Shown piece after piece: positions 1,566-22,849 of a stretch of DNA of 27,407 bases; the stretch's first letter is position 1, and every line of letters begins with the position of its first letter. Position numbers and translations under genes: made by a program. Location of the stretch: positions 1 through 27,407 of the IMG/VR virus record IMGVR_UViG_3300015195_000014; one strand, given 5' to 3'. This DNA is from a virus. The notes under the pieces were generated by a model. That model was not told where the DNA came from and did not search any database. It saw nothing but the letters and a program-made list of their open reading frames with translations.

Positions 1566-2468
1566 TTGTCCTGGGCCAAGTTTGACGACAAGCGTGCACT
1601 CAACAAGAAGCTTCGGGCGGCCGGGCTCGAGGCGCGCGGCCTCGACGATGCGGCGATATGCCATGCGGCGGGCGACGAGAGCGATGGGTTCATTTCCGAC
1701 GTGGACGTACAGCTCATCGGCGCCGCGCACGGCTGCTCGCGGACCCTCAAGCTGGCCGCGAAACTTGTCGCCGTAGGGCGCTGGACCCGCGACGAGGAAC
1801 GTGTTGGTTACTGGATTCACGACTACCTAGAGTTCAACCCTTCCCACGCTGATCTCGTTGAGCGCCGCGAGATCGAACGCAGCCGCAAAGAGCGGGGACG
1901 CAATGGCCAGGGGCGCAGCGACAACGGGCGCGTCACGGGGAGTGACGGCGTTGTCCGCGCGGACGTGACGTCACGTCCGCGCGGACAACCGGTGGGACGT
2001 GGTCCGGACGTGACGTCACGTCCCGCCGGTAGTCCCTCCGGACGTGGTCCGGACGTGACGTCACGTCCCGCCGGTCCCGGTTCTAAAGTCGACTTTCTAG
2101 AACCAAGTCCCAGCTTTACAGGACTTAACCCTTCCGCGCGAGGCGACGCCGACAACGGCGACTCGTGCGAAAACAACGGGACTACACCCAAAGCCGCAGG
2201 CCAGCAGCTTGCCCGCCTGGTGGATACCTGCACCGCCCGTGATCGCGGCCGGGTCGGCATCGAGGCCATCGAGGTGCTGATGTGGGCCAGGGAGCACGCG
2301 TCGGAGCAGCTCATCGACGAGGCCATCGGCTACTGCGCGCAGGCAGCAAAGCGGCCCGTGTTCCCGTCGGCAGTTGCGAAAGTGATCGCGCTTCGCGCTG
2401 CGGATGCCGGCATCGTCGTCGCACCATTCGCGCCGGCCGTGAAGACGGCGAAGGCGGGGAGCGACTGA
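1566..2468 (+). CDS. Replication initiator / replisome-organiser-like protein with an internal repeat array
   Basis: Start chosen at TTG 1566, seven bases after GAAAGG (1553-1558) and just after the endolysin stop; the open frame further upstream is overlap shadow. Product is 300 aa. Residues 1-~115 (WAKFDDKRALNKKLRAAG, then GLDDAAICHAAG, VGRWTRDEERVGYWIHDYLE) resemble the winged-helix N-terminus of actinophage replication-initiation and helix-turn-helix proteins. Residues ~128-172 are a low-complexity 15-residue repeat (RGPDVTSRPAG) that is really a DNA repeat array. The C-terminal ~80 residues are helical (GIEAIEVLMWAREHASEQLI) and could bind a helicase or loader. The layout recalls lambda O, where the origin lies inside the initiator gene. 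Initiator function is inferred from domain style plus the embedded origin-like DNA, not from a catalytic motif. Confidence 0.65.
   Translation: MSWAKFDDKRALNKKLRAAGLEARGLDDAAICHAAGDESDGFISDVDVQLIGAAHGCSRTLKLAAKLVAVGRWTRDEERVGYWIHDYLEFNPSHADLVERREIERSRKERGRNGQGRSDNGRVTGSDGVVRADVTSRPRGQPVGRGPDVTSRPAGSPSGRGPDVTSRPAGPGSKVDFLEPSPSFTGLNPSARGDADNGDSCENNGTTPKAAGQQLARLVDTCTARDRGRVGIEAIEVLMWAREHASEQLIDEAIGYCAQAAKRPVFPSAVAKVIALRAADAGIVVAPFAPAVKTAKAGSD
1950..1989. repeat. Perfect 40-bp palindrome
   Basis: Bases 1950-1969 are the exact reverse complement of 1970-1989, centred on GAC|GTC. It contains the first 18-bp iteron core (1961-1978). A perfect dyad of this length inside a coding sequence is strong evidence of selection on the DNA itself. 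Confidence 0.9.
1961..2068. repeat. Three palindromic iterons, period 45 bp
   Basis: GGACGTGACGTCACGTCC occurs at 1961-1978, 2006-2023 and 2051-2068, starts exactly 45 bp apart. Copies 2 and 3 also share the flanks GGACGTGGTCC before and CGCCGGT after. Because 45 is a multiple of three the array stays in frame and encodes a 15-residue repeat. The core is self-complementary, suiting a dimeric binding protein. Confidence 0.92.
2079..2126. repeat. Inverted repeats in the A+T-richer flank of the iterons
   Basis: GGTTCT (2079-2084) pairs with AGAACC (2099-2104) around a self-complementary AAAGTCGACTTT (2085-2096). Directly after, AAGTCC (2105-2110) pairs with GGACTT (2121-2126) across a 10-base loop. 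Both lie in the most A+T-rich part of the gene. Confidence 0.7.
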
Positions 2469-3088
2469 TGGTGAGTCGAAACAGCAATGGCAAGACGTGC
2501 CGCCAGTGCCAACTGTGGAAGCCCCACAACGAGTTCGGGATCAAGGAACGCCGGAGCCGTGGGAATGTCGATATTCCCACGGTCTACCGGTCAAGCATCT
2601 GTCAGGTGTGCGAGGTCGGCAACCGCCTTGCGAGCAAGGCTGAGGACCCATACCGCCACTCATTCAGCCAACGACGTCGACTACATGCCCAGCGTTGGGG
2701 TTTCACCGTCGCCCAGCTGGTCGCGTGGGGCTGGGACCTCGAACGGCGGTCGATCGAGATGCGAGCAGCGCTGGAGAACGGCTACTGCCCCAACTGCATC
2801 GAGGTCGACGGCAACGGCCAAGTGAAGGTTCATTACTTCCGGGACATGACCCACGGGCTCACGGATCTGACCATCGACCGGATGAACTGCGACCTGCCGC
2901 CGGTCTGGCCGGGAAACGTCCAGTGGTTGTGCAAGACCTGCAACAGCCGCAAGGGCAGCAAGGACCCGATCCTCCACGGCCAGCGCCTGCAAGCAGAACA
3001 CGATCTGAGGCTTGAAGAACGCAAGAGCGACCATCTCTTCGAGCCATACGTTGAGCCCGTCCAGTCCACCTTGTGGGCCGTCGAATGA
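2468..3088 (+). CDS. HNH endonuclease-like protein with zinc-ribbon cysteine pairs
   Basis: The ATG at 2468 overlaps the previous TGA and follows a G-rich ribosome binding site; 206 aa. Four CxxC pairs are visible: CRQC (11-14), CQVC (45-48), CPNC (107-110) and CKTC (155-158). The C-terminal part reads LTIDRMNCD, then WPGNVQWLCKTCNSRKGSK, the shape of an HNH fold (beta hairpin, N-W-L-C..CN..KG helix with structural zinc). The usual DH pair of the first strand appears as DR, and VHYFRD lies just upstream, so catalytic competence is uncertain. It is probably a free-standing phage HNH nuclease acting on DNA. ATGA coupling with the next gene puts it in the operon. Confidence 0.7.
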   Translation: MVSRNSNGKTCRQCQLWKPHNEFGIKERRSRGNVDIPTVYRSSICQVCEVGNRLASKAEDPYRHSFSQRRRLHAQRWGFTVAQLVAWGWDLERRSIEMRAALENGYCPNCIEVDGNGQVKVHYFRDMTHGLTDLTIDRMNCDLPPVWPGNVQWLCKTCNSRKGSKDPILHGQRLQAEHDLRLEERKSDHLFEPYVEPVQSTLWAVE

Positions 3089-3964: not shown

Positions 3965-4257
3965 CCGGAGTGAGCGAGCAGACGGGCGGGAGTGTGCGGC
4001 ACGTTTTTGTCAATGACTTGCCCTACAACGACGGTCAAGAGAATCCGTTGGGGGCTCTTGGGGATGCTCTCGCCTTCGCTGCGGATGACTGGGCCGATAC
4101 TCGGGCGAAGGCGTGGGTATGGGGCATTGTCCTCGGGTGGGACGACGAGGCAATGGCCGAACTGGCCGCCGACTTCCACTGGGATGACGCCACCGTCGCC
4201 CGCCTTCGACGCCTTCACGAAGGCTTCGATGCCCTGTCGGGCCAGCAAGATGGCTGA
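3961..4257 (+). CDS. Hypothetical protein, 98 aa
   Basis: TTG 3961 is preceded at seven bases by GGAAGGAG (3946-3953), which makes it a better start than GTG 3970. The protein is acidic with many Trp and Asp residues (FAADDWADTRAKAWVWGIVL, then GWDDEAMAELAADFHWDDAT, VARLRRLHEGF) and looks all-helical. The C-terminal half could form a small HTH-like bundle. No family recognised. It overlaps the next gene by 8 bases. Confidence 0.6.
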   Translation: MTGVSEQTGGSVRHVFVNDLPYNDGQENPLGALGDALAFAADDWADTRAKAWVWGIVLGWDDEAMAELAADFHWDDATVARLRRLHEGFDALSGQQDG

Positions 4258-4849
4258 GGGCGGGACTGTGGACCCTGTAAATCCTGAAACGCTCCAGATT
4301 GTGGACATCGCCGCTATCCGCGCCGCACTGGCGGCGGCCACACCAGGATCGTGGTGGTCGGGTACCGACCTCGACACCGGCCCCAACCACTTTTGGGATG
4401 GCGCCTGCGTATATGCCCTGGACGCGTCGCCGTGGGAGATTCCGCTGTCCGATCCGAGCGACGGCGAAACAACGTGCAATGAGATGTTCGAGTGGTGCGA
4501 CGTTCACGAGCGGGGTTCCGTCGCCGAAACTCACAACTACATCTCGATCCCTGACGCCCAACACGACGCCAACAACCATCTCATCGGCAACGCTCCGACA
4601 TGGCTGGCTGCCTTGTGCCTGATGACTGAGACCTACAAGGAGCAGTGGTTGGCCGCCGCCGCCGTCCTGCGTGACCACGCGACCAAGTTCGAGGACCAAG
4701 CCAAGAAGGCGCCATCGTCCGACCATTGGACCGTTCCATCCGAGCATCGGCCCTCATGTCCACTAGATGGGCGTCCATGCACTTCGTGGACCTGTTTGGT
4801 CGATGTATGTGACCGCCCACGAGATCCCGACAAGCGGGGAGACGGATGA
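4250..4849 (+). CDS. Ea22-like phage accessory protein
   Basis: ATG 4250 overlaps the previous stop by 8 bases; 199 aa. The N-terminus (VDIAAIRAALAAATPGSWW), a central NHLIGNAPTWLAALCLMTET and a helical region ETYKEQWLAAAAVLRDHATK are the layout of the Ea22/ead-like family found in many phages (LRxALxAATPGPW ... IANAP). The family role is poorly known, mostly non-essential accessory genes. The helix at ~126-155 is closely related to the N-terminus of the gene at 5411-5680. The C-terminal ~40 residues contain four Cys (CPLDGRPCTSWTCLVDVC), a possible metal site. Base composition is lower in GC than in the terminase genes, typical of exchanged accessory DNA. Confidence 0.55.
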   Translation: MAEGGTVDPVNPETLQIVDIAAIRAALAAATPGSWWSGTDLDTGPNHFWDGACVYALDASPWEIPLSDPSDGETTCNEMFEWCDVHERGSVAETHNYISIPDAQHDANNHLIGNAPTWLAALCLMTETYKEQWLAAAAVLRDHATKFEDQAKKAPSSDHWTVPSEHRPSCPLDGRPCTSWTCLVDVCDRPRDPDKRGDG

Positions 4850-4887
4850 GCCTCTTCAACGAAGGCCCAGACCACCCGCTGTCATGA
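4846..4887 (+). CDS. Possible 13-residue ORF
   Basis: ATG 4846 to TGA 4885-4887 encodes MSLFNEGPDHPLS and overlaps the stop before and the start after by ATGA. It may serve only to pass ribosomes from the upstream to the downstream gene, or be the remnant of a longer gene. Low confidence as a protein. Confidence 0.3.
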   Translation: MSLFNEGPDHPLS

Positions 4888-5064
4888 GCCTGTACCGCAA
4901 GAAGCCGGTCGTGATCGAGGCGATCCACTACAGCGATCACCCTGCCCGACATCATTCAGCCAGCGATAGAGAAGGCGGTGAGCGACTGGCTGTGGTCTCA
5001 TTCGGACGAGTTGACCGACTCCATTGCCAAGGCGGTCGCGGCACAGCCAGGCCGAACGCCGTGA
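4884..5064 (+). CDS. Small phage protein (KKPVVIEA type), frame-broken
   Basis: Begins MSLYRKKPVVIEAIHYS, a start shared by many small phage proteins (M-x-x-YRKKPVVIEA). The sensible reading then moves one base forward somewhere in 4915-4945 and continues LPDIIQPAIEKAVSDWL, WSHSDELTDSIAKAVAAQ to GRTP and a TGA at 5062-5064. The unshifted frame becomes Arg/His/Gly-rich and runs on into the next gene. The span is one base over a multiple of three. The C-terminal tail and the stop are part of the first junction repeat (5042-5064). Either a one-base insertion in the sequence or a damaged gene. Confidence 0.5.
5042..5064 (+). repeat. Junction repeat copy 1
   Basis: 23 bp ending in GTGA: CACAGCCAGGCCGAACGCC then GTGA. 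The most divergent of the full-length copies. It encodes the PGRTP tail of the upstream ORF and the GTG start of the 5061 gene. Confidence 0.75.
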
Positions 5065-5244
5065 TCGGCGTGTTTATTGTCGGGTTGGTTGTGGGCCTTG
5101 GCGTAGGCGCCAATGTGACGATGTGGTACTACCTGTTTGGCTCGCGGACCTACATGGTCATCGACCGCTGGTGGCTGGAGAACTCCGAGCGGTGGGAGTT
5201 ATTACCGCACCAGCGAGCTTCCACAGTCGGGCCGGACGCCATGA
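5061..5244 (+). CDS. Small membrane protein, probably frame-broken near its end
   Basis: GTG 5061 lies in a GTGA overlap. Residues 1-~26 (VIGVFIVGLVVGLGVGANVT) form one membrane segment, followed by WYYLFGSRTYMVIDRWWLEN. The reading then appears to step one base forward in ~5185-5215 to give YYRTSELPQSGRTP and a TGA at 5242-5244, which matches the tails of its neighbours and the second junction repeat. Without a shift the frame continues into the next gene and ends at 5414 as a 117-residue fusion with three membrane segments. The conserved tail and repeat favour separate genes, but the fusion cannot be excluded. Confidence 0.45.
5222..5244 (+). repeat. Junction repeat copy 2
   Basis: CACAGTCGGGCCGGACGCC then ATGA, closest to consensus. 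In the frame with the conserved tail it reads QSGRTP-stop; the ATG starts the 5241 membrane-protein gene. Confidence 0.85.
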
Positions 5245-5414
5245 CCCGCTACCTGATCGTCGTTGTGATCGCAGCCACCATCATGGTGGCGGTCGGGGTG
5301 CTCAACAACTCATTGGCAGCTATTGGGTTAGGTGCCTTCCTAGTCGGTCACGTTGTTGTGTTGGCCAGCATGGAGTGGGGCAGGTCCCGCTCACAGTCAG
5401 GCCGGACGCCGTGA
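5241..5414 (+). CDS. Small membrane protein with two predicted membrane segments, 57 aa
   Basis: ATG 5241 sits inside the second junction repeat (ATGA). MTRYLIVVVIAATIMVAVGV and SLAAIGLGAFLVGHVVVLAS are two hydrophobic segments separated by a short polar turn; a basic tail follows (MEWGRSRSQSGRTP). Two-segment proteins of this size can be holins, but it is ~4 kb from the endolysin and nothing else points to lysis, so it stays unassigned. The last seven residues come from the third junction repeat. Confidence 0.5.
   Translation: MTRYLIVVVIAATIMVAVGVLNNSLAAIGLGAFLVGHVVVLASMEWGRSRSQSGRTP
5392..5414 (+). repeat. Junction repeat copy 3
   Basis: CACAGTCAGGCCGGACGCC then GTGA, one base from copy 2 before the start codon. 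Joins the 5241 gene (tail SQSGRTP) to the 5411 gene. Confidence 0.85.
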
Positions 5415-5680
5415 GCGAGGTCTACAGGGAGCAGTGGCAGGAAGCTGCGGCCGTTCTGCGTACCCACGCCGCCAAGCTTGACGAACTAGCCAAGACCGCA
5501 CCCCCACGACCACAAGCACCCCTCGACGCCATGAAGGTTGCCGTGTGCGAGTACCTGCTGAGGATCAACGTCGAGCATGACGGCCCGTTCATCCCACCTA
5601 CGGCCATCAACTGGCTCGGCGACGGGATCGTCGACGCCATCGAAGCCATCAGCCCTACACAGTCGGGCCGTCAATCATGA
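5411..5680 (+). CDS. Hypothetical protein with Ea22-related helix, 89 aa
   Basis: GTG 5411 lies in a GTGA overlap. The N-terminus (SEVYREQWQEAAAVLRTHAA) aligns with the C-terminal helix of the Ea22-like gene at 4250-4849 (TYKEQWLAAAAVLRDHATKF), so the two genes share a module although it is C-terminal in one and N-terminal in the other. The rest (MKVAVCEYLLRIN, FIPPTAINWLGDGIVDAIEA) is unassigned. It ends PTQSGRQS, encoded by the fourth junction repeat. Confidence 0.6.
   Translation: MSEVYREQWQEAAAVLRTHAAKLDELAKTAPPRPQAPLDAMKVAVCEYLLRINVEHDGPFIPPTAINWLGDGIVDAIEAISPTQSGRQS
5658..5680 (+). repeat. Junction repeat copy 4
   Basis: CACAGTCGGGCCG matches copy 2, then diverges (TCAATC) before ATGA. 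Length is preserved at 23 bp. Joins the 5411 gene (tail TQSGRQS) to the 5677 gene. Confidence 0.82.
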
Positions 5681-5814
5681 AATGGAACGGTGGTCCGATC
5701 TTCTGGCCGTGCCCCGACTTGGAGAAGATCGACGTGGATGAATCCGAGATACCTGAGTGGGAACGGCAACTGGTTCTTCCTCCCGAACCTACACAGTCGG
5801 GCCGGCCGTCGTGA
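5677..5814 (+). CDS. Small hypothetical protein, 45 aa
   Basis: ATG 5677 to TGA 5812-5814, with ATGA and GTGA overlaps at its two ends. The product begins MKWNGGPIFWPCPDLEKI and is acidic in the middle (DVDESEIPEWERQ). It ends PTQSGRPS, encoded by the fifth junction repeat. No family recognised. The two bracketing repeats make it a discrete 134-bp cassette. Confidence 0.55.
   Translation: MKWNGGPIFWPCPDLEKIDVDESEIPEWERQLVLPPEPTQSGRPS
5792..5814 (+). repeat. Junction repeat copy 5
   Basis: CACAGTCGGGCCGGCCGTC then GTGA. Joins the 5677 gene (tail TQSGRPS) to the 5811 gene. The shared identity with copy 4 extends two bases upstream (TA before CACAG). Confidence 0.82.
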
Positions 5815-6077
5815 CCTACGAGCCGCCCCCTTGGCTGGTCGATAACCCGCGACCGTCGAACCGGCCCACTGAGATATTCCTGCCCGTTGAGATCGGCATT
5901 GGCCCGGTGTGGTCCCACGACAAAGAGCGAGGCGGATGGTACGGGAGGCTCGACGTCCCGCCATCGTTCGATCCGTGGTGGGCCTGCGACGACATTCACA
6001 CCACCCAAGACGAGGCGTGGGCGTGCGCCGAGCGGGCCGCTCGAAGCCTGATACCGATTCCACTGTCAGGCCGGTGA
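5811..6077 (+). CDS. Hypothetical protein, 88 aa
   Basis: GTG 5811 lies in a GTGA overlap. Pro/Trp-rich (VTYEPPPWLVDNPRP, GPVWSHDKERGGWYGRLDVP, SFDPWWACDDIHTTQDEAW). The last part, HTTQDEAWACAERAARSL, looks like a short helix typical of small single-domain phage proteins. It ends IPLSGR, encoded by the shortened sixth junction repeat. No recognisable family or motif. Confidence 0.55.
   Translation: MTYEPPPWLVDNPRPSNRPTEIFLPVEIGIGPVWSHDKERGGWYGRLDVPPSFDPWWACDDIHTTQDEAWACAERAARSLIPIPLSGR
6061..6077 (+). repeat. Junction repeat copy 6 (short)
   Basis: CACTGTCAGGCCG then GTGA: the six bases before the start codon in other copies are missing, keeping the frame, so the tail is just LSGR. Joins the 5811 gene to the 6074 gene. 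Confidence 0.65.
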
Positions 6078-6190
6078 CCGTCGAGCCCCGCCCCGGCGAC
6101 GTCGAGGTGCTCAGGCGATCCTGTACCATCTGCGCCCAGGACGGCTGCGGCGGCACAGGGAACCCGGCGAGTCGTCCCGGAGCGACATGA
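6074..6190 (+). CDS. Small Cys-rich protein, 38 aa
   Basis: GTG 6074 (GTGA overlap) to TGA 6188-6190 (ATGA overlap with the second WhiB gene). The product has SCTICAQDGCGGTGNP: three Cys in CxxC...C form, possibly a metal site but short by one ligand. Upstream it is charged (EPRPGDVEVLRR). Unassigned; the double overlap and position in a continuous coupled run support it as a gene. Confidence 0.45.
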   Translation: MTVEPRPGDVEVLRRSCTICAQDGCGGTGNPASRPGAT

Positions 6191-9267: not shown

Positions 9268-9324
9268 GGAGAGCGTCGCAATGGGCGCAGGTTAGATAAC
9301 ACCCGAAGCATCGAGGTGCGACCA

Positions 9325-9852
9325 ATGCTGCTCACCTACGCGACAACGGCTCGTTGCAGATGCGGTGCATCGCTCGCGCACGACGACAGTGCCGACGCGT
9401 GCTGGTCGTGCTCGGCTGTGCTGCTCGGCGACGCCGTCCCGGACCTGTCGCCAGGCACCGACGACCACTATCACCGCCACGCACAACTCCAGCCGAAGGA
9501 GGATCCGGTGCTGCGCCGCCCTTGCCTTGACTGCGGCCGGCTGACCATCGGCACGCGCTGCGCCGAGCACACCCGCATCCTCGAGCAGCGCAGGGGCTCA
9601 CCGACCCAGCGCGGCTACGGCGCCGCCTGGCACCGGTTGGCTCAAGCTGCCATCCGTGCCGAGCCGTGGTGCCACACCGCCGGCGGCTGCCCCTATCCCG
9701 ACGCCGGGATCCCGGGCGTCAACCCGCTGACCGGTGGCCACGCCATACCCATGGCGGCCGGCGGCCCGGCGCTGCCCGACGTCGTTGTCGTGCAGTGCCG
9801 GCGCTGCAACTCCAGCCAGGGCGCCCGGCTGCTGCCAGGCACCGGGGGGTAG
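9325..9852 (+). CDS. HNH endonuclease near the terminase genes, with N-terminal zinc-ribbon
   Basis: From ATG 9325 the product is 175 aa. Residues ~11-29 carry CRC...CWSC, a zinc-ribbon. From residue 62 (VLRRPCLDCGRLTIGTRC) the sequence is the usual start of small phage HNH proteins: RGYGAAWHRLAQAAIRAEPW, then GGHAIPMAAGG (first HNH strand; GH instead of DH) and VVVQCRRCNSSQG (N helix and structural Cys). HNH proteins beside terminases assist DNA packaging and cos cleavage in HK97-like phages. A strong AAGGAGG (9496-9502) precedes GTG 9508, so a 114-residue HNH protein may start there, either as the sole start or as a second product. GTG 9316 is another possible start. Confidence 0.78.
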   Translation: MLLTYATTARCRCGASLAHDDSADACWSCSAVLLGDAVPDLSPGTDDHYHRHAQLQPKEDPVLRRPCLDCGRLTIGTRCAEHTRILEQRRGSPTQRGYGAAWHRLAQAAIRAEPWCHTAGGCPYPDAGIPGVNPLTGGHAIPMAAGGPALPDVVVVQCRRCNSSQGARLLPGTGG

Positions 9853-12170: not shown

Positions 12171-14723
12171 GTGAGACTCCTCGACGCCATCATCCCGTCC
12201 CGCCCGGTCGAGCGCATGAACCTGCCCGAGGCGTACTTCGGTGCCGGCGACGGCCTCGGCGGCTTCACCACGTTCTCCGTCGGTGGACAGACCTACACCG
12301 TGCCGGTCTCCACCACCATGCCGGGCCAGAAGGCGGAGTCCATCGCCAACAGCTTCGAGGGCTTCTGCCTCGGCGGCCTGATGGGCAACAGCGTCATCTT
12401 CGGCCTGGCGTCGGTGCGCCTGCGGGTGTTCTCGGAGGCACGCTTCACCTACCAGCGGATGACCAAGGGCCGTCCCGGCGACCTGTGGGGCGACCGCTCG
12501 CTGCGCCTGCTCGAGACGCCGTGGCCGGGCGGCGTGACCGGCGACCTGCTCGCCGTCATGCTCCTGCACGCAGACTTCGCCGGCAACGCGTACGTCGCAG
12601 AGGTCAACGGCCAGCTGGTGTGCATGCGCCCCGACTGGGTCGACATCGTGCTCGCCGCCCGGCACTTCACCGACAGCGGGGGCCACTCCGGCACCCTCGG
12701 CATGGAGAAGGTCGGCTACGCCTACTACGAGGGCGGCAAGCGCCTGGGCACCAAGCCGATGAACTTCCTCGCCGACGAGGTCGCCCACTTCTCGCCCATG
12801 CCCGACCCCCTCGCCAACTACCGGGGCATGAGCTGGCTGACGCCGATCATCCGTGAGATCCGCGCCGACAACGCCGGCATGGACCACAAGCTCGCCTTCT
12901 TCGGCAACTCGATGGCGCAGCCGTTGGACGCCAAGATCGCAACTCCAACTGGATGGACAACGATGGGCGAGGTCCGGGTTGGCTCCAGTGTGATGGGGCC
13001 AGATGGTCGGCCCCGCAAGGTGATGGGTGTGTATCCGCAGGGCGAGAAGGATGTCTACCGTCTCACCTTTGGTGGCGGTGCTGTTACAGAGTGCTGCGAA
13101 GACCATGTGTGGACGGTCACCAACTTTTCCAACCGCCCTTATTACGGTGAGTCGGGCCGTACGTTCAACATGACGCTGCGCCAGATTCTCGACAGCGGCG
13201 TCCACTATCCGTCCGGGGCGGCCAAGTGGTCCATCCCGGTTACGGACCCAGTCGAGTTTGACATTGGTGATCCGCTGCCTCTCGACCCCTACCTTCTTGG
13301 CTCACTTCTCGGTGATGGCAGCTTCCGAGGCAATGGCGCTGGTGGCGGGGGCATTTCGATGTCCAGCCACGCTGCCGACGCGGATGAGCAGGTCGAGATG
13401 CTGACTCCCTTGCTCCCTGATGGAGTCATGGTCAGCCGCAGACAACGTGGCGGGTGGGAGGAGTTCTACTTCAGCAGTGGCATGCATGGCCCCCTGTCAG
13501 TGAACCCGATGACCACCCTCATCAAAAGCTTGGGGCTGTTCAACATAATCGGTCATGAGAAGTTCATCCCGGCTACCTATCTGACGGCTTCGGTGAAGGA
13601 CCGAGTAGCCCTTCTTCAGGGCTTGATCGACACTGACGGGAATACGTCGTCGGCCAGAGGGGCCATCTTCGCCAACACCAGCCAGGCGCTGGTTCGCCAA
13701 CTAAAAGAGTTGGTGGAGAGCCTCGGCGGCACTGCCAGCATGACCAAAATAAAGAGCCAGTCAACGCGTCATCGCTCGCAGTGGGTGCTCTACATCAGCA
13801 ACCTGCCTGAGTGGATCATCCCTTGCCGTCTGGCTCGCAAGGTAAATGCGTGGAATCCGGCTCCGAGACGCTGCTACCGCACCCTCCGGAAGGTCGAGCT
13901 GGTCCGCCGGGCCGAGGTCCAGTGCATCAAGGTCGACTCAGAGGACGGGCTTTACCTGACTGACGATTTCATCGTCACGCACAACACGCCCAACCTGGCG
14001 GTGTCGCTGAAGGAGATCACCGACACGGTGCAGTTCAACCGTTTCGTCGACGCCATCGAGAAGCAGCACAGGGGAGCGGAGAACGCCGGGCGGACCCTGT
14101 ACCTGGGCGCCGGAGCGGACGTAACCGTGGTGGGCTCGAACCTGAAGGACATGGACTTCGCCACCGTGACCAGCCGGGGCGAGACCCGCTTGGCGCTCGC
14201 CGCCGGCGTGCCGCCGACGGTGGCATGTCTCTCCGAGGGCATGCAGGGCAGCTCGCTCAACGCCGGCAACTTCGGCCAGAGCCGCCGCCAGTTCGCCGAC
14301 ATGACGATGAGCCCGCTGTGGCGCAACGCGGCGGGGTCGCTCGCGGTGCTGGTGAGCCCGCCCGACCCCGGTTCGAGGCTGTGGTACGACGCCCGCGACG
14401 TCCCGTTCCTGCGGGAGGACCAGGGCGACCTGGCGGGCATCCAGCAGCAGAAGGCGACGGCCATCCGCGAGCTCTTCATGGCGGGATTCACGCCGGAGTC
14501 GATCGTCGCCGCGGTGACGAGCGACGACCTGACGATGCTCGTCCACACCGGCAGCTACAGCGTGCAGACCCAGACGCCCGGCGTCACGAGCACGAAGATG
14601 CCCTCGACGGTGGACTACCCGCCAGAGGACCCCGAGGGGCAGGCGCACGCGGCGGGACAGGTGCCAGCGGCGGGGCTGCCCGCACCGAAGGTCCCGGCCG
14701 GCGCCGGCAACGGCAACTCGTAA
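12171..14723 (+). CDS. Portal protein precursor interrupted by an intein
   Basis: 850-residue precursor; GTG 12171 follows AGGAG (12159-12163). The host protein is a HK97-type portal: residues 1-248 include SIANSFEGFCLGGLMGNSVI and NYRGMSWLTPIIREIRADNA up to KLAFFGNSM; after the intein it resumes TPNLAVSLKEITDTVQFNRF, TRLALAAGVPPTVACLSEGM and LREDQGDLAGIQQQKATAIR. Spliced length is 493 aa, normal for this family. The insertion point corresponds to the FF.NG(A)-TPNL motif, a highly conserved portal segment. The portal is the dodecameric ring for DNA entry and neck attachment, so efficient splicing would be needed for assembly. The C-terminal ~45 residues are Pro/Gly/Ala-rich. Confidence 0.93.
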   Translation: MRLLDAIIPSRPVERMNLPEAYFGAGDGLGGFTTFSVGGQTYTVPVSTTMPGQKAESIANSFEGFCLGGLMGNSVIFGLASVRLRVFSEARFTYQRMTKGRPGDLWGDRSLRLLETPWPGGVTGDLLAVMLLHADFAGNAYVAEVNGQLVCMRPDWVDIVLAARHFTDSGGHSGTLGMEKVGYAYYEGGKRLGTKPMNFLADEVAHFSPMPDPLANYRGMSWLTPIIREIRADNAGMDHKLAFFGNSMAQPLDAKIATPTGWTTMGEVRVGSSVMGPDGRPRKVMGVYPQGEKDVYRLTFGGGAVTECCEDHVWTVTNFSNRPYYGESGRTFNMTLRQILDSGVHYPSGAAKWSIPVTDPVEFDIGDPLPLDPYLLGSLLGDGSFRGNGAGGGGISMSSHAADADEQVEMLTPLLPDGVMVSRRQRGGWEEFYFSSGMHGPLSVNPMTTLIKSLGLFNIIGHEKFIPATYLTASVKDRVALLQGLIDTDGNTSSARGAIFANTSQALVRQLKELVESLGGTASMTKIKSQSTRHRSQWVLYISNLPEWIIPCRLARKVNAWNPAPRRCYRTLRKVELVRRAEVQCIKVDSEDGLYLTDDFIVTHNTPNLAVSLKEITDTVQFNRFVDAIEKQHRGAENAGRTLYLGAGADVTVVGSNLKDMDFATVTSRGETRLALAAGVPPTVACLSEGMQGSSLNAGNFGQSRRQFADMTMSPLWRNAAGSLAVLVSPPDPGSRLWYDARDVPFLREDQGDLAGIQQQKATAIRELFMAGFTPESIVAAVTSDDLTMLVHTGSYSVQTQTPGVTSTKMPSTVDYPPEDPEGQAHAAGQVPAAGLPAPKVPAGAGNGNS
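12915..13985 (+). mobile_element. Class 3-type intein with LAGLIDADG homing endonuclease
   Basis: 357 residues in frame within the portal. Residue 1 is Ala (AQPLDAKIATPTGWTTMGEV) instead of Cys/Ser, and the C-terminal junction is VTHN followed by Thr. Block B is CEDHVWTV with H64 and W66; block F is AEVQCIKVD with C337; block G has T355, H356 and N357. Trp (B:12), Cys (F:4) and Thr (G:5) are the WCT set of class 3 inteins, in which the block F Cys makes the first attack. The endonuclease shows LLGSLLGDGSF (~127-137) and LLQGLIDTDG (~233-242). Codons are visibly richer in A and T than the exteins, consistent with recent transfer. Confidence 0.9.
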
Positions 14724-17547: not shown

Positions 17548-17800
17548 TTGGCCAATCCTCTGTGGCAGGGCGGCGTCTGCGCCGTCTGTCACACGAGCGA
17601 GCCGCTGGGGCGACACGGCCAATGGCACGTCGACCACGACCACGACTGCTGTCCGACGAAGGCGACATCGTGCCGGCATGTGCATCCGCGGCCTTCTGTG
17701 TGAACGTTGCAACAGGCTTCTCGGCCAGGCGTGCGACGACCCGACGATCCTCGAACGTGCTGCCGCGTACCTGCGGCGTGGTCCGATTCGGATCGTGTAA
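17548..17800 (+). CDS. Recombination endonuclease VII-like protein, frame-broken
   Basis: In one frame (from TTG 17548): GGVCAVCHTSEPLGRHGQ, then WHVDHDHDCCPTKATSCRH. In the next frame: CIRGLLCERCNRLLGQA, CDDPTILERAAAYLRRG to TAA at 17798-17800. Joined, this is a complete small endonuclease VII-like HNH protein: CxxC, DHDH, CC..(T)SC..CIRGLLC..CN and the C-terminal helix. The family resolves branched DNA or nicks DNA at HNH sites. One extra base at about 17680 separates the halves; the unshifted frame stops at 17701-17703. This is either a sequence error or a dead gene. The upstream start is uncertain because TTG 17548 follows the hairpin immediately. Confidence 0.6.
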
Positions 17801-17829
17801 CGAGTATCAAGATACGGGGAAGGGGTTCA

Positions 17830-19299
17830 TTGAACATCCCCAATCGCAATGAGCAGAAGGTCGTAGTGGCCTGGCCGCACGGCTCCACGGTGTCGGCCAA
17901 GTTCATGCGGTCGATGCTGTTCATGTTCCGCCTCGACGCCGTTGCCGCCCGCCGCGCCGACGGCACCTCGGTCGGCGGCCACATGCGCATCCTGAACGGC
18001 GGCGGGCTGGTCGACCTGGCGTCGGGGCCGACCATCGCCCGGGCCCGCAACCAGATCGTGCGGGAGTTCTTGAAGACTGACGCCGACTGGCTCCTGCAGC
18101 TGGACACGGACATGACATTCCCGGCAGACCTGGCCGAGCGCCTCATCGAAGCGGCCCACCCGACGCTGCGCCCGATCGTCGGCGGCTTGTGCTTCGCCTA
18201 CATGGGCGATCACGAGCGCAAGCTGTGGCCGACCCTGTATGCGTGGATCCCCGGCACCGAGCGCCTGCGCCGGCTGACGCAGTACCCGGCCGACAAGCTG
18301 ATCCCGGTGGCAGCCACCGGCGCCGCCTGCCTGCTCGTGCACCGGTCGGTGTTCGAGCGCCTCGACGAGCGCTTCGGCGACAAGACCCCGTGGCCGTTCT
18401 TCGCCGAGACGCCTTTCTGCGACGTGGCCGAAGACGGCACCAAGCGGTGGGACAACTACAGTGAGGATCTGACCTTCTGCTTGCGTGCGGGTGCCTGTGG
18501 CTTCCCGGTCCACGTCCACACGGGCATTCGCCTCGGCCACGTGAAGGAGTTCGAGGCCGACGAGGCCGGCTTCATCGCCGAGAGCGCAGCCATGGCCGAG
18601 GCGTGCGTGCCGGTGCTTCCCACCTACGCCGTCATCGCCTCGAGGAGCCGTCCGCAGATGCTGGCGACGCTGCGCGCGCAGCTGGCCGGACAGACCACCG
18701 AGGTCTTCGTCTTCGACAACGGCTACGACAAAGCGCCCCCCGATTCGATCGAAGCCCACGGCTGGCCCCTTCACAGAATGTGGAACGAGGGCCTGGCGAT
18801 GGCCGAGAAGGCGGCCGGGGGCAAGCCCTACAACGTGGTCATCTGCAACGACGACCTTCAGGTGCCGAACGAGCTCTGCGCCCAGCTGGAGGCCGGGTTG
18901 CGGGTTAGCGATGACCATTGGTGCGCCTACCCGAACCACTCCGGCCTCAACATCCCCCCGGGTGAGGTGGCGCGCACCCAGTCCGACAAGATGGCCGGCC
19001 AGACGATCTCGGGCTGGTGCTTCATGCTCCGAGGCGAGACCGGGCTGCGCTTCGACGAGCGCTACCACTTCTGGTACGGAGACAGCGACCTGGAACGTCA
19101 GGTACGCGAAGCCGGCAAGTTCGTCGTCGCAGTGGGCGGCTGCTTCGTGCAGCACCTCGACCCGATGCGCTCGACGCTCAGCGACCCGGTCCGCATGGCG
19201 CAGGCGATGGAGGACGAGGCGCTCTTCGCCAAGGAGTGGGACATCGACCCGTCCACCCTGTGGCTCGGCCGGAAGCGCGACACCGACACCGCCCCATGA
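17830..19299 (+). CDS. Two-domain glycosyltransferase (GT-A fold)
   Basis: TTG 17830 lies just after GGGGAAGGGG (17816-17825); 489 aa. Domain 1, ~1-265: KVVVAWPHGSTVSAKFMRSM, GPTIARARNQIVREFLKTDA, then DWLLQLDTDMTFPADL with the DTD sugar-nucleotide/metal motif, and a DNYSEDLTFCLRAGACG segment. Domain 2, ~272-489: TYAVIASRSRPQMLATLRAQ, VVICNDDLQVPNELCAQLEA (NDD motif) and FDERYHFWYGDSDLERQVRE, another GT-A unit of GT2 type. Two full transferase domains in one chain suggest sequential addition of two sugars. It opens a cassette of sugar enzymes lying between capsid and connector genes; substrate unknown. Confidence 0.78.
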   Translation: MNIPNRNEQKVVVAWPHGSTVSAKFMRSMLFMFRLDAVAARRADGTSVGGHMRILNGGGLVDLASGPTIARARNQIVREFLKTDADWLLQLDTDMTFPADLAERLIEAAHPTLRPIVGGLCFAYMGDHERKLWPTLYAWIPGTERLRRLTQYPADKLIPVAATGAACLLVHRSVFERLDERFGDKTPWPFFAETPFCDVAEDGTKRWDNYSEDLTFCLRAGACGFPVHVHTGIRLGHVKEFEADEAGFIAESAAMAEACVPVLPTYAVIASRSRPQMLATLRAQLAGQTTEVFVFDNGYDKAPPDSIEAHGWPLHRMWNEGLAMAEKAAGGKPYNVVICNDDLQVPNELCAQLEAGLRVSDDHWCAYPNHSGLNIPPGEVARTQSDKMAGQTISGWCFMLRGETGLRFDERYHFWYGDSDLERQVREAGKFVVAVGGCFVQHLDPMRSTLSDPVRMAQAMEDEALFAKEWDIDPSTLWLGRKRDTDTAP

Positions 19300-19454
19300 T
19301 CGTCCTCGTCGTCACCTGGGTCCTGCTGCACCCCGCCGTGCTGTGTGTCCTGGTCTGGCGCCAGATGCTCGACGCCTTCATGTGGTTGTGGCGGGAGGCG
19401 AGCGAGACCGAGGTCGTCGGCTTCGACAACCACGGGCCGACCGACCGTCGGTGA
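19296..19454 (+). CDS. Small single-span membrane protein, 52 aa
   Basis: ATG 19296 and the stop at 19454 form ATGA and GTGA overlaps with the two glycosyltransferase genes around it. MIVLVVTWVLLHPAVLCVLV is one membrane segment, followed by WRQMLDAFMWLWREASE and a polar tail (FDNHGPTDRR). It might tether the sugar-modifying enzymes to the membrane, which is inference from position only. Confidence 0.55.
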   Translation: MIVLVVTWVLLHPAVLCVLVWRQMLDAFMWLWREASETEVVGFDNHGPTDRR

Positions 19455-20038
19455 GGCTGGTCACGGCGTTCGTCTCCGACCGCGGCGAGCTCTACCTGCG
19501 GGGTTGCATCGAGGCGTACGAGGCGAACGTCGACACGCAGCTGGTCCACTCGACGACGGTCATCGACGACAGCGACCACAAGCTCGGCATGGCCGGGGCG
19601 GTCAGGGCTGCATGGACGTGGGCCCTCGACGCCTCGGCCGACTGGCTCTTCCACGTCGAAGAGGACATGTACCTCACCGCTCCGGTGGACCTGCGCCACA
19701 TGGTGGCGATCATGGATGACCGCCCCGGCCTCGCACAGCTCGTGCTCAAGCGACAGCCCTGGTCGACGGAGGAGCGCCAAGCCGGCGGCATCATCGAGGC
19801 ACACCCAGACGAGTACATCGACAGGGGCCCCTGCACCGAGCACGGCCGGATCTTCTCGCTCAACCCCTGCCTTATCCGGCGCCAGGTCCTCGAGCTGGGA
19901 TGGCCGGACGGAAACGAGGCGGAGTTCACCAGGACATGCCTCGTCGCCGGCTACAGCTTCGCCTTCTACGGCGCCAGGACGGACCCGCCCAGGGTGAGAC
20001 ACGTGGGCACCGAGCGAGGGAAGGGGTGGCGACTGTGA
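19451..20038 (+). CDS. Glycosyltransferase-like protein, 195 aa
   Basis: GTG 19451 in a GTGA overlap. Begins VRLVTAFVSDRGELYLRGCI and EAYEANVDTQLVHSTTVIDD (nucleotide-binding strands of a GT-A fold), then AWTWALDASADWLFHVEEDM with an acidic E-E-D motif at the place of DxD, followed by MYLTAPVDLRHMVAIMDDRP. The end carries EFTRTCLVAGYSFAFYGART and VRHVGTERGKGWRL, typical of short phage GT-A proteins. Probably adds one hexose or similar; donor and acceptor unknown. Coupled on both sides. Confidence 0.68.
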   Translation: MRLVTAFVSDRGELYLRGCIEAYEANVDTQLVHSTTVIDDSDHKLGMAGAVRAAWTWALDASADWLFHVEEDMYLTAPVDLRHMVAIMDDRPGLAQLVLKRQPWSTEERQAGGIIEAHPDEYIDRGPCTEHGRIFSLNPCLIRRQVLELGWPDGNEAEFTRTCLVAGYSFAFYGARTDPPRVRHVGTERGKGWRL

Positions 20039-20751
20039 CCCGAGCGGAGGCGATCGCCAAGGCGATAGAGCACCTCGCCGCGTCGGAGGGCTCGACCGAC
20101 GTCGAATACCGCCTCGTCGAGTGCCGCACCGCCGAGGCGTACATCAAGATGGCCGAGCTGCTGCCCTGGGAGAAGGCAATGGCCGCCGGCGTCGTCGGAG
20201 TACTCGGCGCCGGGCCCCACGGCCGGGAGATAGCCGCCCGCGGCCTGTGCCTGTGCCGGGTGGCGCACCACCACGACTTCGCACTCTTCGACGACGACGC
20301 CGACGGCTACAAGCCCTGTTCCGCCTGGGACGGCCCCTACGTCGTCGGTTCCGCCTGGCCGGCGATTCGCCGCCGCATCGCAGCCAAGGCGCTCGGCCGC
20401 CCGGCCTGGGGCTCGGGCGTCGTGCTGTTCCCCGGCGCCTACGTCTCGCCTGGGGCGTTCCTCGGGAACCACACGCACGTCGGGCCGAACGCCGTCGTGT
20501 CGCACGGCTGCCGCATCGGCAGCTATGTCCAGATCTGCGCAAACGCTGCACTGGGAGGCGAGGTGACCGTGGCCGACGGCGTGTTCATCGGCATCGGCGC
20601 CAACGTCATCCACGGCGGCATCATCATCGGAGCAGGCGCTGTCATCGGTGCCGGGGCCGTCGTGACCCGCGACGTTCGCCCCGGTGCGGTCTGCATGGGT
20701 GTGCCGGCGGCCGAGCGACGCCGGATGCCGTCGCCAGTGTGGGAGGTCTGA
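20035..20751 (+). CDS. NeuD/PglD-type sugar O-acyltransferase (left-handed beta-helix)
   Basis: 238 aa; GTG 20035 in a GTGA overlap. Residues 1-~50 are a helical extension. GVVGVLGAGPHGREIA (~52-67) is the start of the NeuD/PglD nucleotide-sugar-binding domain. From ~130 hexapeptide repeats build the beta-helix: VSPGAFLGNHTHVGPNAVVS, HGCRIGSYVQICANAALGGE, VTVADGVFIGIGANVIHGGI, IIGAGAVIGAGAVVTRDV, ending VCMGVPAAERR. The His in SHGCRIG is the expected catalytic base. Such enzymes acetylate sialic acids or UDP-amino sugars using acetyl-CoA. Next to glycosyltransferases it points to an O- or N-acylated sugar as the product of the cassette. Confidence 0.82.
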   Translation: MTRAEAIAKAIEHLAASEGSTDVEYRLVECRTAEAYIKMAELLPWEKAMAAGVVGVLGAGPHGREIAARGLCLCRVAHHHDFALFDDDADGYKPCSAWDGPYVVGSAWPAIRRRIAAKALGRPAWGSGVVLFPGAYVSPGAFLGNHTHVGPNAVVSHGCRIGSYVQICANAALGGEVTVADGVFIGIGANVIHGGIIIGAGAVIGAGAVVTRDVRPGAVCMGVPAAERRRMPSPVWEV

Positions 20752-21314
20752 TGCCTAACCCCGTGGTCACCACCTACGGTCCCGGCGAGCAGCCGGTGGC
20801 GTTCGTCCCCGGCGATTTCATTCTGTGCCGCAACCTGAGCAAGTGGTGGACGAAAGCAGGCTTCGTGAGCGGCGCTATCCGCTTCGGCGAGCGCCTCCAC
20901 CTCCACGGCGCAGACCGCCAGTACGCCCGCTGGAACCACGCCGTGTGCGTGTCGGGCGACGGCGCCGGCAAGGCGTGGCTCGTCGAGGCGCTCGGCCACG
21001 GCGTGCAGCGTTCCCCACTCGACACCTACAAGCCGGTCGAGTTCCTCTACGTCGCCACCGACCTCGACGACAGCGAGCGGGCAGACTTCGTGGGCTACTG
21101 CGAGACCATGGTCGGCACCAAGTACGGCTTCCTGACCATCGTGTCCATCGCGCTCAGGCTGCTGGGCGGGCCGCGCGTCGGCTTCAGCCAGTCGGGCACT
21201 GTGATCTGTTCCGGCCTCGTGGCGGCGGCTCTTTCGATCTGGAAGTGGAAGTCCAACCCCGCCTTCGTGATGCCGTCGGACCTGGCGGCCTTCCATGGGA
21301 TCAGGGACACCTGA
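20751..21314 (+). CDS. Permuted papain-like (NlpC/P60, YiiX-type) hydrolase
   Basis: 187 aa; ATG 20751 after GGGAGG (20741-20746) and overlapping the previous TGA. The order of candidate active-site residues is His first, Cys last: YARWNHAVCVSGD (H63), WLVEALGHGV (E79), then GTVICSGLVAAAL (C153). This is the circularly permuted NlpC/P60 arrangement of the YaeF/YiiX type, with VGTKYGFLTIVSIALRLLGG between. Such enzymes hydrolyse peptide, amide or acyl-ester bonds, sometimes of lipids or cell-wall peptides. Within a sugar cassette it may remove an acyl group or act on the envelope; this is inference. There is no signal peptide. Confidence 0.72.
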   Translation: MPNPVVTTYGPGEQPVAFVPGDFILCRNLSKWWTKAGFVSGAIRFGERLHLHGADRQYARWNHAVCVSGDGAGKAWLVEALGHGVQRSPLDTYKPVEFLYVATDLDDSERADFVGYCETMVGTKYGFLTIVSIALRLLGGPRVGFSQSGTVICSGLVAAALSIWKWKSNPAFVMPSDLAAFHGIRDT

Positions 21315-21547
21315 TGGCCGCCGGCCCCGGTGCAACTGACGGCGTCGCGCTCGTGCGCTCGGTGATCACTGACGACCGCGACGCGCTGTGTCTGATGCTG
21401 CGCTCGATGACCTGCGCCGAGCGCTGCGACGCGCTGCTGTTCCTCGTCGGCTTCTCACAGAGCCTGCTGGCAGAGGTGGCGGCCGGCCGCTCCACGACGC
21501 CGGGGTGGCTGCTCGACGAGTGCGTCGCCCGCTGGGCGGCAACGTGA
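21314..21547 (+). CDS. Hypothetical protein, 77 aa
   Basis: ATG 21314 overlaps the hydrolase stop, and its own TGA overlaps the GTG of the next glycosyltransferase. Helical (VALVRSVITDDRDALCLMLR, CAERCDALLFLVGFSQSLLA, TTPGWLLDECVARWAA) with three or four Cys. It looks like a small four-helix or HTH-like unit, but no family is recognised. Strong coupling on both sides makes it a genuine member of the cassette. Confidence 0.6.
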   Translation: MAAGPGATDGVALVRSVITDDRDALCLMLRSMTCAERCDALLFLVGFSQSLLAEVAAGRSTTPGWLLDECVARWAAT

Positions 21548-22296
21548 GCGTCCGAGCCGTGCTGATGGCCCGTGACGAAGCCGACGTCATCGCCTACACC
21601 ATTGAGCACCTGCTCGCCGAGGGCGTCGACCGAATCGTCGTCGCCGACAACCGCTCGGCGGACGCCACCCGCTCCATCCTCGACACCTACGCCGGCTGCG
21701 CCCCGGTCACCGTCATCGACGACCCCGTCCCGGCCTACTACCAGGCGGCCAAGATGTCGGCGCTCGCCGCCCGGGGCGCCACCGCCGGCGACTGGGTCCT
21801 GCCGGTCGACGCCGACGAGCTGTGGCATTGCCTCGACGGCGAGCCCCTCGCCGAGCGACTTCGTGCTCTCGATGCCGACGTGGTGACCGCCGCCCCGCTC
21901 GTGCACGTGCCCCGGCCCGACGACGACCAGGGCGACCCCAACCCGTTCACCCGGACCAGCCACGTCGCTGTGTCGTCCGACCAGATGACGAAGGTGGCGT
22001 TCCGTTGGCGCCCCGGCGTCGAGCTGGCGATGGGCAACCACTCCGTGTTCGGAGCCGGGCACCGCACCGCCGGAGGCGTGCTCGGCGTACGGCACTTCCA
22101 GTGGCGGTCGCTGTCACAGGTGAGGCGTAAGGTCTCAGACGGGGTCGCAGCTCTCGACGAGGCGGGAGCTGGGCCGTTCACCGGCACACACTGGCGGGCT
22201 CTGGCAGCGGCCGACGACGCCGGCCTGGAGCGCTGGTGGGACGACTACCGCTCACAGGCGGTCCGGCTCGACCCTGCGCCGTGGCGGGGGCGCTGA
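21544..22296 (+). CDS. Glycosyltransferase family 2-like protein, 250 aa
   Basis: GTG 21544 in a GTGA overlap. VRAVLMARDEADVIAYTIEH is the start of GT2-like (Glyco_tranf_2_4) enzymes, followed by GVDRIVVADNRSADATRSIL and TAGDWVLPVDADELWHCLDG with the DADE (DxD-type) metal motif. The C-terminal half (FRWRPGVELAMGNHSVFG, LGVRHFQWRSLSQVRRKVSD) has the H.QWRS.SQ...K segment seen in phage and bacterial members that act after the DxD site. It should transfer a sugar from a nucleotide donor to an unknown acceptor in the cytoplasm. Confidence 0.82.
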   Translation: MSVRAVLMARDEADVIAYTIEHLLAEGVDRIVVADNRSADATRSILDTYAGCAPVTVIDDPVPAYYQAAKMSALAARGATAGDWVLPVDADELWHCLDGEPLAERLRALDADVVTAAPLVHVPRPDDDQGDPNPFTRTSHVAVSSDQMTKVAFRWRPGVELAMGNHSVFGAGHRTAGGVLGVRHFQWRSLSQVRRKVSDGVAALDEAGAGPFTGTHWRALAAADDAGLERWWDDYRSQAVRLDPAPWRGR

Positions 22297-22297
22297 G

Positions 22298-22849
22298 TTG
22301 GCCACGATCGCAGCCCTCGTCCTGTCCCTGCCCGAGCGCTCGCACCTGCTCACCGAGTGCCTTGCCGCCGTCCACGCACAGACCCGTCAACCCGACGACG
22401 TCGTGGTTGGCGTGGACTGCTCCCGGCGTGGCCAGGTCCACAACTCCAACCGGCTGTTGGACGCCACCGACTCCGACTGGCTGGCGTTCTGCGACTCGGA
22501 CGACCTGTGGTGGCCCGAGCACCTCGCCGTCGCCGAGAAGTACTTCGACACCGCCGACGTCGTCGTCTCCCGCTTCGAGCTCGTCGGCCGACCCTGGAGC
22601 ACCATCGAGCCTTGGCACGACGACTTCGAGGATCTGAGGTTCACGAACTGGGTCGGCTCGCCGTCGATGGTCGTAGCAAGGCGCCAGCGCTTCGGCCGGT
22701 GGTGTGAACCGTTCCGGCCGTTCCGCTGGATTGACTGGGCCAACTGGAACCGGCTGCTCGACGACGGATGCCGGTTCGTCGACACCGGCGTGGTGACCAC
22801 CAGCTACCGGTTCGGCGAATGGAGCAACGGGAGCTGGCGGGCCAGCTAG
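22298..22849 (+). CDS. Glycosyltransferase family 2, compact, 183 aa
   Basis: TTG 22298 is one base after the previous stop. TIAALVLSLPERSHLLTECL, AAVHAQTRQPDDVVVGVDCS and DSDWLAFCDSDDLWWPEHLA give the GT2 fold with the DSDD donor/metal motif. It lacks the long C-terminal extension of many GT2 enzymes but includes FTNWVGSPSMVVARRQRFG and WIDWANWNRLLDDGCRFVDT, the acceptor side. Last sugar gene of the cassette; its TAG overlaps the TAG of the converging minus-strand gene (CTAG). Confidence 0.82.
   Translation: MATIAALVLSLPERSHLLTECLAAVHAQTRQPDDVVVGVDCSRRGQVHNSNRLLDATDSDWLAFCDSDDLWWPEHLAVAEKYFDTADVVVSRFELVGRPWSTIEPWHDDFEDLRFTNWVGSPSMVVARRQRFGRWCEPFRPFRWIDWANWNRLLDDGCRFVDTGVVTTSYRFGEWSNGSWRAS

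Follow-up and report, generated by a model that had tools for sequence, protein, structure and literature searches.

Genes and junctions at the locus

The window analyzed here is the whole of virus record IMGVR_UViG_3300015195_000014, a stretch of 27,407 bases. Its gene content is that of an actinophage, with endolysin, EndoVII, two WhiB-like proteins, a sigma factor and terminase, together with a portal protein with an intein, a protease and the major head protein. The best reading is that the array described below belongs to an actinobacterial phage and that its genes sit in an operon. An endonuclease VII-like gene (2282-3088) lies near the array, and an HNH endonuclease gene (9316-9852) is found immediately 5' of the terminase genes. 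The intein of the portal gene (12171-14723) carries a LAGLIDADG homing endonuclease, and the portal intein region has the lowest G+C in the window (0.58 at 13250-14000). Three glycosyltransferase-like genes and one enoyl-CoA hydratase-like gene separate the major head protein from the head-tail connectors (17707-22849). Rfam and tRNA scans were empty.

The array consists of short genes (g) separated by junctions (J) that carry copies of a repeat:

4000..5900, no strand: low-G+C island that houses the array (G+C 0.61-0.63; flanks 0.70-0.74)
4232..4257, +: J0, probable seventh, degenerate copy, CCCTGTCGGGCCAGCAAGATGGCTGA, tail LSGQQDG, at the junction before g0
4250..4849, +: g0, 199 aa, no family, 3' half paralogous to g4 (sequence comparison, family search)
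4887..4944, +: remnant of a gene of the KKPVVIEA family that breaks off after about 18 codons, with another coding frame behind it (phrog_419 match to 1-18 only)
4942..5064, +: g1, 3' coding part (ending ITLPDIIQPAIEKAVSDWLWSHSDELTDSIAKAVAAQPGRTP), a frame without a start codon at its head
5042..5064, +: J1, CACAGCCAGGCCG-AACGCC-GTGA (23-mer match)
5061..5240, +: g2, small membrane protein, start within J1, coding frame continuing through J2
5222..5244, +: J2, CACAGTCGGGCCG-GACGCC-ATGA (23-mer match)
5241..5414, +: g3, 57-aa membrane protein, tail QSGRTP (ORF, codon usage)
5392..5414, +: J3, CACAGTCAGGCCG-GACGCC-GTGA (23-mer match)
5411..5680, +: g4, 89 aa, tail QSGRQS (ORF; aligns from its start codon with the in-frame interior of g0)
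5658..5680, +: J4, CACAGTCGGGCCG-TCAATC-ATGA (direct reading)
5677..5814, +: g5, 45 aa, tail QSGRPS (ORF)
5792..5814, +: J5, CACAGTCGGGCCG-GCCGTC-GTGA (23-mer match)
5811..6077, +: g6, 88 aa, tail LSGR (frame of ORF 5757-6077, codon usage)
6061..6077, +: J6, short form CACTGTCAGGCCG-GTGA, no spacer (direct reading, matrix)
6074..6190, +: g7, 38 aa, first gene past the array with high G+C (0.72) (ORF, G+C)

Four junctions are clean 4-nt stop/start overlaps: g3/g4 (5411-5414), g4/g5 (5677-5680), g5/g6 (5811-5814) and g6/g7 (6074-6077). An earlier sequence-only reading had RTGA serving as both stop and start at every junction, which holds for the copies at 5392, 5658, 5792 and 6061 but not for those at 5042 and 5222, where the upstream frame is broken. 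At J1, codon usage indicates that the frame ending in QPGRTP has coding character from about 4945 on, with a different coding frame before it. At J2, the gene starting at 5061 stays coding through the junction to a stop at 5414 (ORF 4767-5414; codon usage), and the frame ending in QSGRTP at 5244 corresponds only to a short ORF that begins with TTG and gains no support from codon usage. The apparent frame break in g2 falls between about 5190 and 5215. Both junctions look like sites of frame breaks within the upstream gene, either true or assembly-derived. We considered a programmed frameshift in g1/g2, but an indel is the simpler account.

The upstream tails at J1 to J6 read QPGRTP, QSGRTP, QSGRTP, QSGRQS, QSGRPS and LSGR. 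In the sequence as given, the main coding frame at J2 encodes TVGPDA instead of the tail.

A repeat in register with stop and start codons

When their start codons are aligned, the six copies share one layout: a 13-nt core, CACAGTCRGGCCG, a variable spacer and RTGA. Spacer lengths at J1 to J6 are 6, 6, 6, 6, 6 and 0 nt, each a multiple of 3, so the frame of the tail is always kept. All six copies are on the same strand (+), within 1 kb and at consecutive genes; five measure 23 bp and one 17 bp. Those at 5042-5064, 5222-5244, 5392-5414 and 5792-5814 fit CACAGTCGGGCCGGACGCCRTGA with no more than 3 mismatches, against 0 matches expected from 100 dinucleotide shuffles, and the copies at 5658-5680 and 6061-6077 (17 bp) were identified by direct reading of the sequence. 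A matrix of the core gives the six copies scores of 17.8 to 20.9, and the next best score on both strands of the window is 12.7. RTGA occurs at only 0.56% of window positions, indicating that its presence in register in six of six copies is not due to chance. The six RTGA-ending copies first picked out from the sequence alone are borne out by shuffles, direct reading and matrix scan. The proposed search of the rest of the 27-kb record, carried out with the 13-nt core matrix on either strand, found no additional copy of like quality, and the random-placement statistics, proposed as a possible refutation, left the repeat standing.

The degenerate copy J0 scores 8.5, a value that just 3 other positions on the forward strand of the window attain, and its codon register matches that of J1 to J6.

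Conservation drops sharply 5' of the core and 3' of RTGA. Among the five full copies, 3 of 65 core positions depart from the consensus compared with 8 of 30 spacer positions (Fisher p = 0.004). The core is asymmetric and non-palindromic, and no conserved RNA fold was found at the six junctions (z -1.5 to 0.8; none beyond shuffles). The conserved block opens within a codon, at its second base, and the first base of this codon varies: the codons preceding Q in J1 to J6 are GCA, CCA, TCA, ACA, ACA and CCA, which specify four different residues and always end in A. Across the phage, a third-base A is found in 8% of NCN codons in the other genes and in 14% of those in array genes. The glycine codon within the repeat is GGC in every copy. 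Together, the invariant third-base A, the exclusive use of GGC and the mid-codon start of the block point to a nucleotide-level element rather than a peptide tag.

Starts in the array have a Shine-Dalgarno match of at most 3 nt (AGG/GGA), and two copies have none. About 10 other overlapping starts in this phage do without the repeat, most with a Shine-Dalgarno match of 4 to 5 nt, indicating that an overlap as such does not call for the repeat. The g7/whiB junction at 6187 has an ATGA overlap and a GGAG ribosome site but no repeat. Translational coupling through the RTGA overlap is likely at the array junctions. Re-initiation through the 4-bp overlap, one of three functions proposed at the outset, is likewise likely but would not require the repeat, which those other junctions lack.

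Gene bodies, relatives and two-copy precedents

No family was found for g2 to g6, and their sequences are unlike one another; g2/g3 (membrane), g4, g5 and g6 also differ in length and character. The exception to this picture lies outside the set of neighbors: g4 aligns with the in-frame interior of g0 at 74% over 91 nt, with similarity that opens precisely with the J3 RTGA; there is none 5' of it. The g0 interior segment has no joint in front. The description of the genes as unrelated is accordingly correct for neighbors but not for g4, which is paralogous to g0 (4250-4849) in the 3' half of the latter.

Upstream of g1, the KKPVVIEA-family remnant is far shorter than its intact relatives, which at 37 IMG/VR loci mostly extend 80 to 110 residues from the motif onward. 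The DNA at 4887-4940 (N terminus MSLYRKKPVVIEA) is 84 to 97% identical over 33 to 47 nt to Caulobacter and Gordonia phages. Matches of such phages to 4879-4927 were rejected as relatives of the repeat, as the match is the KKPVVIEA N terminus. The low-G+C island, the truncated family member and the frame breaks are signs of gene turnover.

At the sensitivity used, no close relative of the phage was found in IMG/VR, INPHARED or GTDB genomes, nor was a relative with the same array plus or minus one gene. Scans of IMG/VR and GTDB genomes for exact and degenerate forms of the motif returned lone scattered matches and no array. Protein searches with the array genes against phages, IMG/VR and genomes yielded nothing but one 45-residue match, in an 86-kb phage (IMGVR_UViG_3300025703_000001; L059). 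This phage was rejected as a relative of the array, since its own repeats are unrelated: a different, GTCTGAAAAGAGAACTATTACGACATGA-like sequence occurs four times, at likely gene starts or immediately in front of them (772-800, 1179-1207, 2331-2359 and 5744-5772), and looks like a start-associated or promoter-like element.

Comparable junctions with two copies exist in other phages. In Island3, the last 18 residues of gp68 are those of gp67, the product of the preceding gene, with a repeat at the nucleotide level as well, and Brujita lacks gene 68 (Pope et al. 2011, PMC3029335). Reading the records, we found that the two Island3 junctions are identical at 54 of 63 nt in a stretch reaching across TGATG, that both proteins share the tail RYQLAHVR.VAGRK.RRR, and that Brujita has one such junction. 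As in the window, the repeat covers C-terminal codons, the stop and the next start, and the single gene between copies is unrelated to its neighbors. Island3 differs in having two copies of about 57 nt at TGATG, compared with six (perhaps seven) copies of a 13-nt core at RTGA. The statement in the sequence-only reading that its author knew of no described element of this form does not hold in view of the 2011 report. Terminases of Island3/Brujita-type phages (Cluster I) are among the most similar to that of the window phage (53% over 320 aa).

A second precedent comes from Cluster O, where Corndog gene 14 is flanked by 17-bp repeats (Cluster O paper, PMC4351075). In Krili, a short gene is inserted at a ATGACTGA overlap, between two copies of CGATGACTGA, and both upstream proteins end in DD; the site is uninterrupted (empty) in Firecracker, and 24 of the 25 listed records show no interruption. 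The inserted Krili ORF (MTEYRVSVEELAHRLCVNQRTVRRWIKQ..LSDD; MN428058.1, L210:321-501) occupies the place of Corndog gene 14 and is unannotated in its record. The likeness to the window lies in one small gene placed exactly at a stop/start overlap, a duplicated junction and common last residues; the Cluster O type also has relatives with an empty site. The Cluster O insertion has two copies of a repeat of about 10 to 17 bp and of other sequence, compared with six copies in the window.

We surveyed 289 loci (2.72 Mb) with 23,219 candidate single-gene intervals, scoring those in which the upstream stop and the gene's own stop share at least 15 of the 20 preceding bases. The survey recovered Island3, which served as a positive control, and identified one new two-copy case (IMGVR_UViG_3300046557_000370, L107:7389-7630), in which two GAGAGGCTGAGCGC-RTGA copies surround one 74-aa gene and ERLSA is the C terminus of both upstream proteins. 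Its 35-kb record has no third copy. One further locus is a weak case at 15/20 (L228). Three other candidates were rejected, one for paralogous tails (L148), one explained by Shine-Dalgarno/ribosome-site identity (L261) and one owing partly to Shine-Dalgarno identity (L007), as were the collagen-like GXY repeats flagged by the first junction survey, which are internal coding repeats. Apart from the window, no stack of more than two copies was found in the survey (289 loci, 2.72 Mb).

Related in concept are boundary sequences at which mosaic phages have been proposed to recombine, as cited in PMC3029335. As described there, these are short conserved sequences at gene boundaries that permit exchange of modules by homologous recombination; one boundary is common to different phages, whereas in the window one sequence is found at successive boundaries of one phage.

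Origin of the array

The repeat is real and unusual: in the window, a kind of junction repeat already described for two-copy events occurs in six copies. We favor, with moderate confidence, the reading that the array is a stack of single-gene cassettes with a common junction sequence, made by recombination that keeps the reading frame. New genes would enter, or gene bodies would be swapped, by homologous or short-homology recombination at the common junction. As the joint comprises the final codons and the stop of the upstream gene along with the start codon of the downstream one, each exchange would leave both in frame, and identical tails on the upstream proteins would be a by-product. The RTGA overlaps would let translation continue into each following gene with no Shine-Dalgarno site involved. 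The HNH endonuclease or the endonuclease VII-like gene could be a source of DNA breaks for recombination.

This cassette stack is supported by unrelated gene bodies separated by nearly identical joints, by spacers that always preserve the tail frame, by the homology between g4 and g0 that opens at a joint, by the low-G+C island with its signs of gene turnover, by the two-copy precedents and by the overlapping starts elsewhere in the phage that lack the repeat. Within the window, the direct observations are the repeat, its register and the break in homology at one joint; elsewhere they are the two-copy architecture and the empty sites, and we infer from these that recombination at the core produced the array. 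Exchange within the array itself would be analogous to the two-copy precedents. The homology break and the empty-site precedents make a recombination joint the best supported of the three readings initially offered, although exchange at this locus is deduced rather than seen. Against it count the failure of the searches to find a relative with the same array plus or minus one gene and the sixfold use of one junction, for which a cassette stack does not account. In addition, stronger conservation of the core than of the spacer is not predicted for passive scars unless crossovers fall in the core. The core-biased conservation fits such crossovers and fits a start-associated control element equally well, and the two readings are not mutually exclusive. 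In a more speculative version, which we regard as rather unlikely, the 13-nt core is a dedicated joint for repeated in-frame capture of single genes at the stop-start overlap, by the phage or a partner, giving a minimal integron-like stack without attC folds in which the core also keeps the captured gene translated.

How phages take up single genes at exact boundaries without breaking their neighbors is an old question. The described cases we found are single two-copy events, and a six-copy stack with a short core offers a direct test ground for repeated in-frame capture or start-linked control.

The alternative that survives best, which we hold as a tentative possibility, is a start-associated regulatory element, in which a protein or RNA of the phage or its host binds the 13-nt core on mRNA or DNA and controls initiation of the six downstream genes. 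A role of this kind has been proposed for the start-associated sequences (SAS/ESAS) of Cluster K mycobacteriophages (PMC3203893); repeats of this type are also present in Microbacterium Cluster EF phages (PMC7302621). Cluster K SASs are 13 bp long, typically lie 3 to 7 bp before the start, are spread over half of the genome and favor more than 50 bp of upstream space (PMC3203893). The geometry of the window repeat resembles them (PMC3203893) more closely than initially suggested: a short asymmetric sequence of 13 nt in one orientation, at non-structural genes, 6 nt from the start in five of six copies. The conservation of core over spacer at the nucleotide level and the short Shine-Dalgarno matches of at most 3 nt at array starts also speak for it. 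Yet SAS/ESAS repeats contain a Shine-Dalgarno core and keep no single register relative to the upstream stop, whereas the window repeat has no such core and all its copies are at 4-nt overlaps. A start-associated role leaves this constant register of the upstream RTGA stop unexplained. Other points against it are the confinement of the copies to consecutive genes within 1 kb, unlike SASs, the spacing of 0 at J6 and the lack of a conserved RNA fold at the junctions.

Three further explanations are improbable. Tandem duplication of a gene with its junction, after which the bodies would have become unrecognizable as relatives and only the joints would have remained similar, has the paralogy of g4 and the 3' half of g0 in its favor but is very unlikely given how dissimilar g2/g3, g4, g5 and g6 are in length, character and sequence beside joints so alike, and given that no joint precedes the interior segment of g0.

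Cluster A stoperators are 13-bp asymmetric sites that are oriented with transcription, distributed genome-wide and bound by repressor. A stoperator- or operator-like repressor binding site overlapping stop and start codons would account for an asymmetric 13-bp site in a single orientation with transcription at gene junctions. We give this little credence, since the six copies fall within 1 kb rather than genome-wide (next best match 12.7 versus at least 17.8) and no integrase or repressor match was obtained among the window proteins scanned from this probably incomplete record. Cluster O-type dyad repeats are a 17-bp inverted (palindromic) motif, whereas the window core is asymmetric with no conserved fold.

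Similarly improbable is a functional C-terminal peptide tag (QSGR-TP/PS/QS) on unrelated proteins, acting for example in localization or turnover. Six upstream ends have related tails, and some of the variation in the core is synonymous, as a tag would predict. The common tails of Island3 and Krili, however, differ in sequence and result from recombination, and the main frame at J2 does not encode the tag. C-terminal tails common to neighboring phage genes can be recombination joints rather than protein signals, a caution for annotation. The reading of the repeat as a tag, raised when it was first noticed, is disfavored by the codon preceding Q, where the block starts mid-codon and the residue varies while the third-base A does not.
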